DNA from: Flavipsychrobacter stenotrophus
Lineage (GTDB): Bacteria; Bacteroidota; Bacteroidia; Chitinophagales; Chitinophagaceae
Direction of reading: 5' to 3'
DNA: 49,115 nt
Assembly: GCA_945902755.1 (NCBI GenBank)
Contig: CAMDNC010000003.1
Location: 1 to 49,115 of the forward strand
How positions within the stretch are numbered: the first letter of the stretch is position 1; the number at the start of each line of letters is the position of its first letter. Of the stretch, positions 13,176-21,015 are shown one piece after another. The position numbers were made by a program, and so were the translations under genes. A model generated the notes under the pieces. The model made no database searches and was not told the origin of the DNA. It worked only from the letters and a program-made list of their open reading frames with translations.

Positions 13176-14045
13176 CTAGTCAACCTTAACTCTTTTTTCT
13201 TCGATTATTATATCCCCTTCCTTAAGTCTGATGTAGTAAAAACCAGCAGGTACATCTGCTGCCTCGAACTCCACCCCAAACTCATGACCTGTGGCAGGAA
13301 ACTCTCTGTCTTCGAAGACCGACTGTACGGTATTGCCCATATCGTTATATACACCTAAAGTGAGACGTTTAGATTCTTTTGTAATTATTCTGAATGTTGC
13401 CACAATTTTTAAAGGTTTGGGAACATAGGCAGGCATATCTGGTACTTGTTCAGAAGGTGCATTGATAGTGTAATAATCGGGCTTTTTCCTGCCCGTGGCA
13501 TTGCTTATTACATCTAGTAATTGACGGGCTACTTCTGGTCTATTGGCATCATAAATATTAGATAAGCTTGCATTGTTAGTTACAGCCCAAACTGCATATT
13601 GCCCTAAATCATCAAACAAATTGTTTGCCTTAACGAACTTCATTACTGTAACCAGCGTATCGCTGCCTATTCCAGAATATCTAAACCCATGCCCTGAAGA
13701 AGGACAAGCCTTGGGGCTGTTACCACAAAATGTTTGAACTAGCATACTGGCTGAGCCTGATGGCTGTAGCACCAGCAATTCCTCTCCTGCCAATATTATG
13801 GGCTGATAGGAACTACTGTCTGGCGTAAGTACTGTACCAACATCAATTTTCACCTTCAGTAAGTCTCTACTAGTGTTAACAAGCACAATTGTGGTTGTTT
13901 TGCCCTGATAAGCTCCGGTAGTGTTGGATGCTGAAAACTTTACCATTTTAGTCTTAATGGCTTCATTCAGACTTAGTATACCTACAGCAGCCCGTAACTG
14001 CACAATCGGTATAAACAAAATAATGGCTAAAAAAGAACGCAGCAT
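13176..14045 (-). CDS. Hypothetical secreted protein, third gene of the deamidase cassette
   Basis: Signal peptide MLRSFLAIILFIPIVQLRAAVG; Cys-containing segment TFCGNSPKACPSSGHGFRYSG; C-terminal beta-sandwich-like segment ending FYYIRLKEGDIIIEEKRVKVD. Confidence 0.75.
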   Translation of the reverse strand: MLRSFLAIILFIPIVQLRAAVGILSLNEAIKTKMVKFSASNTTGAYQGKTTTIVLVNTSRDLLKVKIDVGTVLTPDSSSYQPIILAGEELLVLQPSGSASMLVQTFCGNSPKACPSSGHGFRYSGIGSDTLVTVMKFVKANNLFDDLGQYAVWAVTNNASLSNIYDANRPEVARQLLDVISNATGRKKPDYYTINAPSEQVPDMPAYVPKPLKIVATFRIITKESKRLTLGVYNDMGNTVQSVFEDREFPATGHEFGVEFEAADVPAGFYYIRLKEGDIIIEEKRVKVD

Positions 14046-14097
14046 GGATTGTAAATTGAGATAATAAAAATTGATATTCGCTTTACACAAACGATTA

Positions 14098-14466
14098 TTA
14101 CTTTTTCCTTCTTACTCTGAGTATAATATCAGAATATTCATTAGCACGCTTTACTAATACTGGTGTATTGGTTTTTTCAGACATCCTGAGTAACTCCAAG
14201 TATTCGGGAGCTGCATTCTTGGGTATTTTGTAAAACCTTGCTGACTCATTGAAGTTAACCTCTATATATGCATCATCACCAGCAGGCGGGTTGATAGCTG
14301 CTACAGTAAGGGCATACTCTACAGGTACTTTACCATTATTGTCAACTTTATTCTTTTGTACCAATGCGCAAGATGGAAATGCAATAGCCAGAAAAAATAA
14401 ACCCAACATGTATGTGGTACAAGTTGAGTTTACAAACAATTTACTAAACGACTTTTTTATGGACAT
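14098..14466 (-). CDS. Small lipoprotein resembling a protein-glutaminase pro-domain (candidate inhibitor/immunity protein)
   Basis: Lipobox AFPSC; LTVAAINPPAGDDAYIEVNFNESARFYKIP resembles VVTVADMNGVEGSSAIEVVFNENTEFFTVN in the upstream gene; ATG overlaps the stop of that gene (ATGTCCATAA). Confidence 0.75.
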   Translation of the reverse strand: MSIKKSFSKLFVNSTCTTYMLGLFFLAIAFPSCALVQKNKVDNNGKVPVEYALTVAAINPPAGDDAYIEVNFNESARFYKIPKNAAPEYLELLRMSEKTNTPVLVKRANEYSDIILRVRRKK

Positions 14467-15578
14467 GTAATTAAGTTCCTGTAATTGTAAAGGGTATTGT
14501 TTGTGGCAGAAAAAGTAGGATCTGTAGAGAATACTAAACCAGATGTACCAGAAGGAGCATAAGAAGCTGTAGGGCGGATGTTATACATCGTAACCTTTGG
14601 TATGAAGGAACCAGAGCATACCGGATTTTCTTGTGCATGTAACCACACAGACAAGAGAACAGGTTGATTAAACATTGCGGGGTCAAATACATAAGCTTTA
14701 GGTCCGGTAGGAGTTTTTACTGTAACTAATGGCGCAACATGATACCACCAGCGAATGCAGCAACCACCCCATTTTTGGCCTTGCACAGACAACTTGTAGG
14801 TTGAGGTAGGAGTGGCGAAACTGAATACTTTTTTAGTTCCATATTTATATCTTTTATTAATAATCCAACACATTTTGTGGGCGCGAGCATAACAACCATC
14901 TATACAGTATTGGAATGGGATACAGTAATCAATAGCATAGGGACCGGGTATAGCACAGCATTGTTTAGCTATGTAATTGAACATGAGTTGAGCTGTAGCA
15001 AAATCTGGTATTAGATTATTTAGTCCTGTGTCTGATAAATTGATTGTCCCTAGCTCTGACGGGTTGTCAATAACTTCGTCGGTAATAGTAGATGCTCTCA
15101 ATGATACAGCTGTCTCAGCACCTTTGTCTAAAACACGTCCACTTAGTGCTTCGGCCTGCTGACCTGTGGCATATTCGGCTTTTAGCAACGTACCCTTCCA
15201 AGGATTGAAAGATATTTGCAAAGGTTTGCCGTTGCTAAAAGCTTCTTTTACAACAGCTACAGTTGCAGGGTCATTAACTGTAAAGAATTCCGTGTTTTCA
15301 TTAAATACTACCTCAATTGCTGAACTACCTTCAACACCATTCATGTCAGCCACAGTTACAACACTAGTGAGAGTACGTTGAGGTTCGTTTTTACCTACGT
15401 TGTTATTCAATGCGGCACTATCATCGGTAGGAGCATAACAATTTGTTGTAGTAACTTTTGAACTGTTCTCCCCCTTTTTATTGCAGGAACTAAAAGTAAA
15501 AGAATAACCCATAAAGGCAACCAAAGTAACAACAGAGGCCAGTTTGGATATACGATTGAACATAAATTTGGGATGCAT
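14457..15578 (-). CDS. Lipoprotein with pro-region and protein-glutaminase (protein deamidase)-like catalytic domain
   Basis: GYSFTFSSCNKKG lipobox; pro-region IEVVFNENTEFFTVN; catalytic motifs DGCYARAHKM, CCIRWWYHVAPLV, AYVFDPAMF matching the Cys-His-Asp arrangement of the Chryseobacterium-type protein-glutaminase. Start uncertain (15605, 15578 or 15563). Confidence 0.8.
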   Translation of the reverse strand: MHPKFMFNRISKLASVVTLVAFMGYSFTFSSCNKKGENSSKVTTTNCYAPTDDSAALNNNVGKNEPQRTLTSVVTVADMNGVEGSSAIEVVFNENTEFFTVNDPATVAVVKEAFSNGKPLQISFNPWKGTLLKAEYATGQQAEALSGRVLDKGAETAVSLRASTITDEVIDNPSELGTINLSDTGLNNLIPDFATAQLMFNYIAKQCCAIPGPYAIDYCIPFQYCIDGCYARAHKMCWIINKRYKYGTKKVFSFATPTSTYKLSVQGQKWGGCCIRWWYHVAPLVTVKTPTGPKAYVFDPAMFNQPVLLSVWLHAQENPVCSGSFIPKVTMYNIRPTASYAPSGTSGLVFSTDPTFSATNNTLYNYRNLITCP

Positions 15579-15748
15579 AATGTCCTTGTATTTGATGATT
15601 GACAAAACTATTTAACTCTAATGTACGCAGCTTTTTTCTATAAATCAACAAATAGTAGATTTTTTATTTTTTCGGGCTATCACCTAGTACTATTCACAAA
15701 AATCATTAACTTTAATTGATCATAGATTTCACATACTCATTTCTGGTT

Positions 15749-17209
15749 ATGAAAAACACTATTACAATAGCTTTATTTTTATTTCTTGGGTTGAGCGCTA
15801 ATGCGCAGTACAAGAAAAAACATATGACTGTTGAAGGTCATAATCGATTTATAAGCGCATTATTACAGCAAAACAATGTAGAAAACAGTAAGGCTAAAGC
15901 AACCGCTGGAGTACCCACACAACGTGTGATAGCGCAAAGTACGAGAGACAATGCATTAGGAACGCTTTCGGACTCAGTGAAACTTAAATATAGCGGTATG
16001 AGAAAGTCAGCATATGACTACAACAACATGTTGTTTGCTTACAATTATACCTACAGCACATCTCCGATGTTTGATTATGCAGGCATTTTTACAGTACCTC
16101 AAGTAAAGTATGATACTTATTTGCATTGGACAATGGATCCGTTCAGTTTGCCTTCATTTGTATTTTATGAGTCTAATATTGCGGCTTATGATACTAACAG
16201 TAACCAAACTAGCTTTCAGGAAATATTCCCCGACACATTAAATGATGATCGTAAATACTTCAACACATTTAATACTAACAACACTATAAACAGTGGATTA
16301 TGGACAAACTTTAATACTGGTATCCCAGATAGTGCTTACAAACAGTTTTTTAGCTACGGAACTACAGGTAAGCTGATAAAAGATAGCGTTTACGAATACC
16401 ACATGGGGACTTGGAAACAAGTAGCAAAAACAACCTACTCCTATAGCGGCACGGGGAATTTACTGCAGATTGACCATTTTGCAAATCTAACCGACACGAC
16501 TTTTTCGTTACCACTCATACAGCAGTTGAAATATGTAAATACCTATGACGCTAGTGGTAGGCTTTTGACAGTGCAAACAAGTTTTTATGATGGTACTGTA
16601 TTAGGAGAATATGTAAGGGACACTTTTAGTTATAGTGGTTCATTGACCTTCCATAACTCTTGGAAACAACACCAATATGACCCAATACATGGCACTTGGT
16701 GGCCACAATACAATATGTCTAAACATATTACAGGCTCAAAACCAGATACGGTGTTTCATAAAGGATGGGATAGTATTGCAAATGCTTGGTCGCCTACATC
16801 CATGCAGATAGTAGGTTATAACACCAATAATGACCCAGATACTATTCTGCAATACCTGTACAATTGGACTTCATATTCGTTAACTCCAGACTATACTACT
16901 GTGTATTATTATGAAACATTTTTGGACACAACTCCTGTATTGAGCAATAATAATCTGCCTACTATTGAAGGATCTAGAATACTGCTATATCCCAACCCAG
17001 CAACAACAGAAATTCACGTAGCACTTGTAGAAAAAACTAATAAACTTAGTGCAACAATTTACAATATGAATGGCCAACTGCTATCGAAGCAAGAATGGTA
17101 TAATACTATTCATGAAACTTTGGACGCTAGCTTCTTACCATCAGGTGTCTATATTGTAGAAATTGCCAGTGACAACAATAAATATACCAAACAGTTTATA
17201 AAGCAATAA
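15749..17209 (+). CDS. Secreted protein with T9SS type A sorting domain
   Basis: MKNTITIALFLFLGLSANAQYKKKH; C-terminal LLYPNPATTEIHVALVE...LPSGVYIVEIASDNNKYTKQFIKQ. Confidence 0.85.
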   Translation: MKNTITIALFLFLGLSANAQYKKKHMTVEGHNRFISALLQQNNVENSKAKATAGVPTQRVIAQSTRDNALGTLSDSVKLKYSGMRKSAYDYNNMLFAYNYTYSTSPMFDYAGIFTVPQVKYDTYLHWTMDPFSLPSFVFYESNIAAYDTNSNQTSFQEIFPDTLNDDRKYFNTFNTNNTINSGLWTNFNTGIPDSAYKQFFSYGTTGKLIKDSVYEYHMGTWKQVAKTTYSYSGTGNLLQIDHFANLTDTTFSLPLIQQLKYVNTYDASGRLLTVQTSFYDGTVLGEYVRDTFSYSGSLTFHNSWKQHQYDPIHGTWWPQYNMSKHITGSKPDTVFHKGWDSIANAWSPTSMQIVGYNTNNDPDTILQYLYNWTSYSLTPDYTTVYYYETFLDTTPVLSNNNLPTIEGSRILLYPNPATTEIHVALVEKTNKLSATIYNMNGQLLSKQEWYNTIHETLDASFLPSGVYIVEIASDNNKYTKQFIKQ

Positions 17210-17541: not shown

Positions 17542-18165
17542 TTAAGCGTTATTCTCTTCTGCAGCAGTTTCAGTTGATTCAGTAGCAGTTTCAGTTGATT
17601 CAGTAGTAGTTTCAATTGATTCAGTAGTAGTTTCAGTTGATTCTGCAACATCTGTAATTTCAACAACATTTTCCTCAGCTTGAACTTCTGGCATAGTGTT
17701 TACTACAGATTCAGTTGCAGTTTCTACTGTAGATTTTGCTCCAGAGCTTCTACGGCTACGGCGTGTTTTCTTAGCTGCCGCAACCTCTGTGTCTCTACCG
17801 TAAATGGTATTGAAATCAACTAACTCAATCATCGCCATATCAGCCGCATCGCCTATACGACGAGGCAACTTTATGATACGAGTATAACCACCTGGACGAT
17901 CAGCAACTTTGTCGCTTATAACACCAAATAGTTCTTTAATGGCTTCTTTATCTTGCAAATAGCTAAACACGATACGACGATTGTGCATATTGTCGTTTTT
18001 GCTACGAGTAATAATTGGCTCAGCATAGACGCGTAGCGCCTTAGCTTTAGCCAAAGTAGTAGTGATACGCTTGTACTGTATCAGTTGGCAAGTAAGGTTG
18101 GAAAGTAACGCTGCACGATGTGAAGCTGTGCGACTTAAATTTTTGATTTTGTCTCCGTGACGCAT
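17542..18165 (-). CDS. rplQ: 50S ribosomal protein L17 with long acidic repeat tail
   Basis: [56 protein letters not shown]; extended C-terminus of TESTETA repeats. Confidence 0.95.
17561..17643 (-). repeat. Four 21-bp tandem repeats inside the rplQ 3' end
   Basis: Units ending ...GTTTCAGTTGATTC, e.g. AGTAGCAGTTTCAGTTGATTC, AGTAGTAGTTTCAATTGATTC, AGTAGTAGTTTCAGTTGATTC. Confidence 0.9.
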
Positions 18166-18241
18166 GACATTTGTGTTTTAAGCCCTCATACCGTGTCAGG
18201 ATTTATGAGGTTGTTATAAAATGAAAAATGTAGATAAAAAA

Positions 18242-18280
18242 GGTCAGTATTCACTTACCGCATGGTTAAGAATACTGACC
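18242..18280 (-). terminator. Terminator-like intercistronic hairpin between rpoA and rplQ
   Basis: Minus strand GGTCAGTATTC-17 nt-GAATACTGACC followed by TTTTTTATC. Confidence 0.65.
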
Positions 18281-18289
18281 AGAAAAATA

Positions 18290-19288
18290 TTAATCTTCTC
18301 CTCTGCGGAATTTGTTGATATCCATACCAAAGTGCAAACCGCGTTCGTGGAGCACTTGTTCGATTTCAGAAAGCGATTTCTGACCGAAATTACGGAATTT
18401 CATAAGTTCTTCCTGAGTGTACTGTACTAGTTCGCTCAGAGAGTTGATTTTTGCAGCTTTTAGGCAGTTGAAAGCACGGACAGAAAGTTCTAGATCTTCG
18501 AGTGGAGTGTTCAATACTTTGCGGACAAGAAGTGTTTCTTCGTCTACAATAGTTTCTTTCTCCTCACGTCTTGTATCCAACGAAATATTCTCATCAGTGA
18601 TGATCATGAGGTGCTGGATAAGAATACGTGATGCTTCTTTTACAGCCTCTTCAGGATGAATAGTACCGTCGGTAACTACCTCCATGATTAACTTTTCGAA
18701 ATCCGTACGTTGTTCAACGCGGGTATTTTCGATGTTGTACTTTACATTTTTGATAGGAGTGAAGATCGAATCAATAGCTATTAAACCCAATGGTCCATCT
18801 TCAGGACGATTTTCTTCTGCCGGTACATATCCACGACCTTTGCCAATGTGAACCTCCATTTGAAAACCAGTACCTGGATGCAAGTTGCATATAACTAAAT
18901 CAGGGTTCATTACTTGAAAGTCAGGTAATGCTTCACCTATCATACCAGCGGTAAAGATTTCTATCCCCTTAACGTTGATGTCTACTTTGTGACTTACAAA
19001 ATCGCCAACTTCGCCAATGGCTTTAAGACGAACCTGCTTTAGATTGAGGATAATTTCTGTAACATCCTGAAAAACACCCTTGATAGTAGCAAACTCATGA
19101 TCTGCACCGGGGATTCTGATTGCAGTGATTGCAAAACCTTCTAGAGAAGACAGCAAAACACGGCGCAATGCATTACCTATTGTAACGCCATAACCAGGTT
19201 CTAAAGGACGAAACTCGAACTGCGCTTCAAAATCGGTTGTTTTCTGAAGAGCTATTTTATCCGGTTTTTGAAAATTCAATATGGCCAT
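18290..19288 (-). CDS. rpoA: DNA-directed RNA polymerase subunit alpha
   Basis: FEFRPLEPGYGVTIGNALRRVLLSSLEGFAITAIRI; C-terminal FNCLKAAKINSLSELVQYTQEELMKFRNFGQKSLSEI. Confidence 0.98.
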   Translation of the reverse strand: MAILNFQKPDKIALQKTTDFEAQFEFRPLEPGYGVTIGNALRRVLLSSLEGFAITAIRIPGADHEFATIKGVFQDVTEIILNLKQVRLKAIGEVGDFVSHKVDINVKGIEIFTAGMIGEALPDFQVMNPDLVICNLHPGTGFQMEVHIGKGRGYVPAEENRPEDGPLGLIAIDSIFTPIKNVKYNIENTRVEQRTDFEKLIMEVVTDGTIHPEEAVKEASRILIQHLMIITDENISLDTRREEKETIVDEETLLVRKVLNTPLEDLELSVRAFNCLKAAKINSLSELVQYTQEELMKFRNFGQKSLSEIEQVLHERGLHFGMDINKFRRGED

Positions 19289-19353
19289 ATTGATATTTGT
19301 TTGATATTTATTTGTGTACTGAATATTGTTACTGGTAGGCGAAAAACAACATA

Positions 19354-19372
19354 GCAGAGTGAAACACTCTGC
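19354..19372 (-). other. Intercistronic hairpin rpsD-rpoA
   Basis: GCAGAGTG-TTT-CACTCTGC on the minus strand, followed by TATGTTGTTTTT. Confidence 0.6.
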
Positions 19373-19388
19373 TGTTGATATGACGTTA

Positions 19389-19994
19389 TTACTTAGAGTA
19401 CAACTCTACAATCAGCTGCTCCTTAATGTTCTCGGGAACTGCTTCACGTTCTGGGTGGGCTATGTATGTTCCAACCAAATCTTTTTCGTTGAAATCTAAC
19501 CAGCTGATACGTGTATTCTTTGGACGAATCATAGCTGTTACCGTATTGTTAGCCTTGCTTTTAGGTTTCAATTCTATTACATCCCCTGGTTTCAGCGTGT
19601 AAGAAGGTATGTTAACAACATGGCCGTTAACCATAACATGCTTGTGAGATACTAACTGACGAGCAGCAGGACGTGTAGGGGCGATACCCATACGGAATAC
19701 TGCATTATCTAAGCGTGCTTCCAACAATTTGATAAGGTTTTCACCTGTTGCACCTTTAAGGCGTGAAGCCTCAACATAGGTGTTTGCGAACTGCTTTTCG
19801 AGCAAGCCATAGGTGTATTTGGCTTTTTGTTTTTCTTTCAGCTGCACAGCATATTCGCTTGGAGCCTTACGCTTGCGAGTAGGTCCGTGCTGACCTGGAG
19901 GGTTACTGTTTTTAGAAAGGCTTTTGCCTGATCCAAGAATCGGCTCTCCGAAAATGCGGCAGATTCTGTTTTTGGGTCCTGTATAACGTGCCAT
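19389..19994 (-). CDS. rpsD: 30S ribosomal protein S4
   Basis: MARYTGPKNRICRIFGEPILG...RLDNAVFRMGIAPTRPAARQLVSHKHVMVNG. Confidence 0.98.
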   Translation of the reverse strand: MARYTGPKNRICRIFGEPILGSGKSLSKNSNPPGQHGPTRKRKAPSEYAVQLKEKQKAKYTYGLLEKQFANTYVEASRLKGATGENLIKLLEARLDNAVFRMGIAPTRPAARQLVSHKHVMVNGHVVNIPSYTLKPGDVIELKPKSKANNTVTAMIRPKNTRISWLDFNEKDLVGTYIAHPEREAVPENIKEQLIVELYSK

Positions 19995-20128
19995 GACGAT
20001 TTTTGTTTTAGCTGCTCCGTCTCCTTTAAAAATCGTAAAATCCGATCCGGAACAGCACTTGTTATTAAAATTATTGAATAATGATTTTTAACTGAACAAT
20101 TGCAATGAAATGCAAATGACGCAATAGA

Positions 20129-20530
20129 CTAAACTCTACGTTTTTTGGGAGGGCGACAACCATTGTGTGGCAGTGGGGTAACATCCTTTATCGACGTAAC
20201 TTCTATACCAGAATTATTGATGGAACGTATAGCACCTTCGCGACCAGAACCTGGTCCCTTAACATACACATCTGCACGTTTCATACCAGCATCAACTGCA
20301 ACTTTAGCGCAGTCTTGAGCTGCCATTTGGGCAGCATATGGTGTGTTCTTTTTTGAACCACGGAAACCCATTTTACCCGCAGATGACCAAGATATAACTT
20401 GTCCACTTTTGTTGGTGATACTGATGATGATGTTATTGAATGTTGCACTGATGTGCACATCACCATGTGTGTCTACTTTAACGATTCGTTTTTTTGCAAC
20501 GACTTTCGCTGATGCTTGCGCTTTTGCCAT
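20129..20530 (-). CDS. rpsK: 30S ribosomal protein S11
   Basis: [49 protein letters not shown]...[15 protein letters not shown]. Confidence 0.98.
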
Positions 20531-20634
20531 TTTAGTTTTTTAATAAAAGGTAATCACTGAAAATTAACCGGCCACAGCCAGCCCACACCACTCCTCCCCA
20601 TTGCGCCACAATGGATCTGGCAGTGGAATAGATT

Positions 20635-21015
20635 TTATTTTTTTGGCGCTTTTTTCTTACCTGCAACTGTCTTACGCTTTCCTTTACGAGTACGACTGTT
20701 TGTACGAGTACGTTGACCACGTAATGGTAAACCCTTACGATGACGGAGGCCACGGTAACAAGCGATGTCCATAAGACGTTTGATATTCATCTGCACTTCA
20801 GAACGCAGCTGACCTTCCACTTTAAACTCAGCGTTAATGATGTTACGAATCGCAGTTTGCTCTTCGTCATTCCATTCGTAAGCTTTTTTGTCATAGCTTA
20901 CTCCTGCTTTGTCAAGAATGTAGCGCGCAGTATTGTTGCCAATACCATAGATGTAGGTGAGCGCTATTTCACCACGTTTGTTTTTCGGAAGGTCAATACC
21001 AGCTATACGAGCCAT
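20635..21015 (-). CDS. rpsM: 30S ribosomal protein S13
   Basis: [34 protein letters not shown]...[26 protein letters not shown]. Confidence 0.98.

Follow-up and report, generated by a model that had tools for sequence, protein, structure and literature searches.

A stand-alone homologue of the protein-glutaminase pro-domain, encoded beside its enzyme and proposed to act as an inhibitor in trans

The window analysed here, a stretch of 49,115 nucleotides from a Flavipsychrobacter stenotrophus contig (CAMDNC010000003.1), encodes a predicted protein-glutaminase (PG) and, overlapping its 3' end, a small exported protein that is homologous to the pro-domain of the adjoining enzyme. We propose that this partner is a stand-alone pro-domain and a trans-acting pseudo-substrate inhibitor of the upstream PG, serving self-protection or immunity. 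We hold this reading to be probable, with binding, inhibition and protection all inferred. What the computations show is homology of partner and pro-domain, the partner's predicted fold, conserved pairing with gene overlap, matching export status and extreme conservation of one loop. The features of the pair are as follows.

14457..15605, minus strand: PG, a Gln_deamidase_2-type deamidase (PF18626), predicted lipoprotein zymogen with an export signal
15171..15377, minus strand: cis pro-domain of PG (roughly residues 77-145), mostly beta with a single helix (model secondary structure, alignments)
14634..14990, minus strand: PG catalytic domain core (PF18626 match; across 29 relatives C238 and H289 do not vary and D308 is kept in at least 90%)
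14457..14466, minus strand: 10-nt overlap of the PG stop and the partner start, shared by all 28 partner-bearing loci of the genus
14098..14466, minus strand: small exported protein of 122 aa, stand-alone pro-domain homologue, proposed trans-acting PG inhibitor
14107..14319, minus strand: stand-alone pro-domain proper, residues 50-120 (AlphaFold model, Foldseek)
14230..14253, minus strand: proposed pseudo-substrate loop F72-NESARF-Y79 (conservation, and alignment with residues 34-86 of 3a54/3a56)

Both genes lie on the minus strand, and the protein sequences quoted in the first-pass annotation of this DNA are right. The PG has 382 aa when counted from the TTG start at 15605 given by the gene-calling tool; the ATG at 15578 is the likelier start. 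It matches PF18626 with an E-value of 1.7e-25 and 89.7 bits, above the curated Pfam cut-off of 25 bits, and scores 79.3 bits against NF040782, the NCBI model for PG, below the equivalog cut-off of 250 bits. Judged by these profile scores, it belongs to the same family as the Chryseobacterium PG but to a different equivalog. Its PDB matches are 3a54, 3a56, 2zk9 and 8z3i, its closest relatives there being the Chryseobacterium enzyme and FBPG, and its structure model matches 3a56 with an E-value of 1.2e-17 over 309 columns. The Chryseobacterium proteolyticum PG (3a54/3a56) resembles it in enzyme family, in pro-domain fold and in the substrate-mimic segment around Ala47. The lipobox Cys41 is invariant among 29 relatives, and Cys238, His289 and Asp308 align with the positions of the Cys-His-Asp triad, which in the Chryseobacterium lactis pro-enzyme is C156-H197-D217 (PMC13298967). 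On the Pfam cut-off, the triad and the pro-domain, though not on the equivalog cut-off, the window protein fits the PG family; glutamine deamidation itself is inferred. The cis pro-domain aligns with the pro-region of 3a54/3a56, and its family matches the Chryseobacterium pro-regions in hhalign (E 2.8e-7). Within the window's genus it is the variable part of the enzyme, with a mean pairwise difference of 0.68 against 0.27 for the catalytic domain. The PG of the nearest relative (genome G007, locus L002) reads with a stop codon in frame after the signal peptide and before the pro-domain, possibly a frameshift or an assembly error.

The homology of the partner to the cis pro-domain was observed at several levels of comparison. 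The two window proteins share 45% identity over 29 aa in BLASTP (E 0.001, a single comparison), and hhalign of the partner family against the pro-domain of the PG family gives a probability of 94%, an E-value of 1.1e-7 and a score of 44.9; the best score in 100 column shuffles was 18.7. No match was found by hhalign between the partner family and the PG catalytic domain. The shared core IEVxFNExxxF proposed in the first-pass annotation is above chance; conservation among partners is centred on F72-x-x-S75-A76-R77-F78-Y79. A search of the PDB with the single partner sequence returned nothing and a family profile was needed: run against all PDB sequences, it placed pro-PG (3a54/3a56, residues 34-86) first, with E-values of 0.002-0.003. 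The AlphaFold model of the partner has three strands, a helix and two further strands, with a pLDDT of about 93 over residues 50-120; in the PG model the cis pro-domain has its strands in the same order. In Foldseek the model's top PDB match is 3a56_B (E 2e-4, rmsd 1.7 Å over 77 columns), followed by 3a54_A and 3a56_A, with another pro-PG, 8z3i, at rank 5. An absence of structural similarity to the pro-region, set beforehand as an outcome that would refute the idea, was therefore not encountered. Matches to the AB5 toxin B-subunit and other OB-fold proteins were rejected as general fold resemblance, weaker than the matches to pro-PGs.

Profiles point the same way. NF040782, a model made by others, matches stand-alone partners of other lineages at its pro-region (E 2.5e-5 for locus L077, 6e-4 for L109 and 0.005 for L116), although part of the match to the L077 partner may be signal peptide. 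An HMM built only from stand-alone partners and run against the 5166 ORFs of all loci retrieves the Chryseobacterium partners as well as PG pro-domains in cis, with the first unrelated ORF, among the matches listed, at an E-value of 2.8. The Chryseobacterium partners are diverged. A two-sequence alignment of the downstream lipoprotein gave an unconvincing hhalign probability of 3%, and 24 sequences of that family alone gave 14% (E 0.002); an HMM of partners from other lineages reaches an E-value of 6.7e-7 for the best Chryseobacterium member. The window partner itself has no match to any Pfam, NCBIfam or PADLOC family.

The partner's ATG sits within the final codons of the PG gene, an overlap from which translational coupling of the two is expected. 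Purifying selection acts on the partner, with a dN/dS of 0.11 against the nearest relative and of 0.09-0.22 over four close pairs. Its sequences carry basic tails and variable N-terminal linkers. The first-pass annotation had called the partner a lipoprotein, which holds for about half of the genus homologues, those with a Ser-Cys lipobox; the feature is not conserved, and the others have a signal-peptidase-I-type end. Eight nucleotides past the partner stop starts a gene for a 304-aa exported protein without a family match (13176-14090, minus strand), homologues of which adjoin the pair in only a few close relatives (L002, L003 and L010). On the other side, a divergently transcribed gene for a T9SS-sorted protein with RHS-like repeats (15716-17209, plus strand) adjoins the pair in nearly all genus loci; the protein is possibly a target or a co-secreted factor. 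Also nearby is an ordinary operon for ribosomal proteins and RNA polymerase alpha (17542-21015, minus strand; L17, RpoA, S4, S11, S13). The PADLOC models gave no match for PG, partner or the 304-aa protein, and membership of the pair in anti-phage defence was rejected on this ground.

Conservation of the pairing, whose absence elsewhere would have counted against the original proposal, is well supported. In a sample of MAGs labelled Flavipsychrobacter, Taibaiella or Chitinophagaceae, taken as the window's genus, the partner lies directly 3' of PG with the same 10-nt overlap in 28 of the 30 PG loci fetched. Searching the whole genomes of 101 relatives found 29 with one partner each, 28 of them beside PG and one cut by a contig end. 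A sample of 399 genomes from the phylum added four other partner matches, all beside PF18626 genes (Fisher p about 1e-8). Among 120 Chryseobacterium genomes, 70 have PG; the diverged partner is found in 66 of these and in none of the 50 without PG (Fisher p 1.7e-29), and it is directly downstream of PG in all 66. A genome carrying the C. proteolyticum PG sequence (L077) also has a downstream partner. These species counts are not independent events, and absences are less certain than presences, the first pass of some pairing searches having scored limited candidates. The pair also occurs in contigs assigned to Ferruginibacter and other Chitinophagaceae, to Chlorobiaceae, Acidobacteria, Verrucomicrobia and Candidatus Brocadia, and to a Xanthomonadales MAG (a gammaproteobacterium). 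These carriers are mostly MAGs, and the phylum range is provisional.

The form of the pair differs with lineage in a matched way. Outside Bacteroidota the partner consists of the domain alone, 74-98 aa long except for one longer ORF of uncertain start, and neither partner nor PG has a hydrophobic N-terminus. In Bacteroidota both carry export signals, leaving aside PGs with a missing or doubtful 5' end. Because both proteins have export signals or both are without them, PG and partner appear to work in one compartment. The genes around the pair vary from phylum to phylum, and no gene is common to the surroundings of the non-Bacteroidota pairs. A wider operon including the 304-aa protein was rejected, and we take the unit to be two genes, since the flanks differ and the third gene rarely follows. 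Some PGs stand alone: whole-genome profile searches found no partner in genomes G002 (loci L008/L126) and G040 (L018/L140) despite a PG of the same type, and a few PGs of other lineages are also without one. G002 and G040 would be useful natural controls.

PG is sold as a food enzyme and structures of its zymogen have been solved, and the neighbouring gene, present in nearly all Chryseobacterium PG genomes (the 66 of 70 above), is without a Pfam family; the bacteria that supply PG to the food industry also carry it. The partner bears on what PG is for and on what it threatens in its producer. If it inhibits, it would explain how producers withstand the broad protein deamidation of which PG is capable, it would offer a ready-made tool for the control or co-expression of PG, and it would bring deamidases under the rule, known from proteases, that a free pro-domain serves as inhibitor.

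The conserved loop connects the partner to the active site. Its F, S and R are invariant in all 47 distinct partner sequences, and the residue at position 76 is Ala in 28, Gln in 17 and Glu in two. The loop aligns with F43-M-L-T-A47-Q-F-Y50 of the Chryseobacterium pro-PG, which sets Ala76 opposite Ala47. According to its PDB title, 3a54 is the A47Q mutant of pro-PG, and the title of the structure paper speaks of pro forms 'converted into enzyme-substrate complex' (cited in PMC10318531). As far as these titles go, Ala47 is the substrate-mimic position, where the substrate glutamine is placed. Of the two loops in the window's genus, the partner's is canonical (FNESARFY), whereas the one in cis has drifted (FNENTEFF). 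The Chryseobacterium partner loop, S[APQ]Q[VI]FY, is without the R, and Pro is common there at the Ala47-equivalent position. Several non-Bacteroidota PGs have Gln at that position in the cis pro-domain, as in FHERQRIY (L113) and FNERQRIF (L120); with FNEKQRIF, such loops occur in L113, L120, L109, L110 and L112 and are a natural version of A47Q. We looked for a rule linking residue 76 of the partner to the cis-loop residue and saw none, and why 17 of 47 partners and several cis loops have Gln at the substrate position remains unexplained.

Under the proposed mechanism, PG would be exported as a lipid-anchored zymogen silenced by its own pro-domain, removal of which would yield active enzyme. 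The partner, in the same compartment and at levels matched through translational coupling, would then dock on mature PG in the manner of the pro-domain, and the F-x-x-S-[A/Q]-R-F-Y loop of the partner would enter the active-site cleft with Ala (or Gln) in place of the substrate glutamine. PG blocked in this way would not deamidate the producer's own proteins. In Bacteroides helcogenes, PG activity rises 17-fold when the pro-domain is cleaved; the severed propeptide and the mature enzyme purify together, suggesting that they bind non-covalently (PMC13139226). Since that cut propeptide appears to stay bound, binding of a detached pro-domain in trans is plausible, and with its loop the partner has the features that a trans-acting pseudo-substrate inhibitor requires. 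The lipid anchor of PG is on the pro-region, so maturation would release the enzyme, and the producer's envelope would be open to attack; a separate inhibitor, either periplasmic or held by a lipid anchor, suits the need to shield it, protection being inferred. Several points weigh against the inhibitor reading. PG already has a cis pro-domain, so that the additional copy may serve some other purpose; there are PGs of the same type that manage without a partner; the Gln-loop partners might be substrate rather than inhibitor; and the Chryseobacterium loop is without the R.

The first-pass annotation had left inhibitor, immunity protein and chaperone side by side, and the partner could indeed be an intermolecular foldase for the PG catalytic domain, with inhibition secondary. 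Some protease propeptides act so when supplied separately, the pro-domain fold, translational coupling and common compartment would suit the role, and help in trans might compensate for the variable cis pro-domain of the window's genus (0.68 against 0.27 for the catalytic domain). However, a foldase has no need of the substrate-mimic loop, where conservation is strongest, and folding could be done by the cis pro-domain, which is always present, while partnerless PGs exist. We think this role unlikely, and favour inhibitor or immunity protein over chaperone because the substrate-mimic loop is conserved. The same loop, invariant and part of a domain homologous to one that occludes, points to the active site rather than to an exosite, and so speaks against a permanent regulatory subunit bound beside the active site that alters which substrates active PG takes, where it sits or how stable it is, without switching it off. 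Co-export and conserved coupling would agree with such a subunit, as would the basic tails and variable N-terminal linkers, and in roughly half of the genus partners there is a lipobox by which the mature enzyme could be tethered; we rank the subunit after the foldase, as a doubtful possibility.

The Gln residues raise the question of whether PG deamidates its partner, Gln to Glu, so that binding loosens and a temporary block gives way to activity. The 17 Gln and two Glu among 47 partners at the Ala47 position are in line with this, as are the Gln in several non-Bacteroidota cis pro-domains and the A47Q pro-PG mutant, which to judge by the title of its paper gives an enzyme-substrate complex. 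But Ala is commoner and cannot react, Pro is common in Chryseobacterium, and cis and trans loops follow no consistent pattern, and as an account of the partner it is very improbable. A broader conjecture, which we consider quite improbable, is that enzyme and detached pro-domain make the PG family a two-component system in which the natural Gln, in partner or in cis according to lineage, is a self-substrate, PG slowly deamidating its own inhibitor as a built-in activation timer; if true, this would be a zymogen clock run by deamidation instead of proteolysis. Duplications of gene parts do occur, and a few lineages are without the partner, but a recent copy of the pro-domain retained by chance, without special function, is contradicted by the presence in contigs assigned to several phyla, the constant adjacency to PG, the dN/dS of 0.09-0.22 and the invariant loop, and is practically ruled out. 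The inhibitor in trans remains our preferred reading.

The statement in the first-pass annotation that no named system has this form stands for protein deamidases, for which none was found in the literature searched, but the principle is known for proteases. A close likeness is SpeB-Spi of Streptococcus pyogenes, in which a small adjacent, co-transcribed gene encodes Spi, described as 'a propeptide analogue' (PMC2873492; PMC3462683) of its papain-fold neighbour, the C10 protease SpeB. There the target is a protease and not a deamidase, the pro-domain is different, the range is restricted rather than spread over several phyla, and Spi is thought to be cytoplasmic, whereas the Bacteroidota PG partners have export signals. 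The PG partner is of the Spi type in its pro-domain sequence and fold and in its adjacent, same-strand, coupled gene; its target is no cysteine peptidase (PF18626) and it is not of the Spi family, and binding and inhibition are inferred. The Bacteroides pairs Bfp/Bfi and Btp/Bti likewise combine, in Bacteroidota, an exported lipoprotein zymogen with an adjacent small, exported, partly lipoprotein inhibitor (PMC3462683). Unlike the PG partner, which is the pro-domain itself, Bfi and Bti are staphostatin-like and have no identity to any propeptide (PMC2873492). A staphostatin-like (lipocalin-like) identity of the partner was rejected, the best Foldseek matches being pro-PGs and none of the 50 listed being a staphostatin. 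Stand-alone subtilisin propeptides (MEROPS I9: POIA1, yeast IB2, SUB1-ProM, TgMIC5) are free pro-domain copies that inhibit enzymes with the same kind of pro-domain, and SUB1-ProM adjoins subtilisin genes (PMC6993865), but they act on serine peptidases, the examples are eukaryotic and the fold is unrelated. The cathepsin propeptide-like inhibitors (MEROPS I29) are stand-alone propeptides of a papain-fold enzyme (PMC6010012); they differ in being eukaryotic, directed at cysteine peptidases and unrelated in sequence. In the literature searched we found no paper on the PG partner gene, no mention of a free pro-domain partner in the PG papers, and no earlier report of a propeptide-like inhibitor of a protein deamidase; most subscription papers were outside its coverage.

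Two further loci were observed during the searches. One Chryseobacterium genome (G518), in which no partner was found, has nine PF18626 matches; several of these stand in tandem on contig 2. At locus L187 (genome G774) a divergent PG-like protein has no obvious signal peptide, and the partner profile finds a match in its internal pro-domain.
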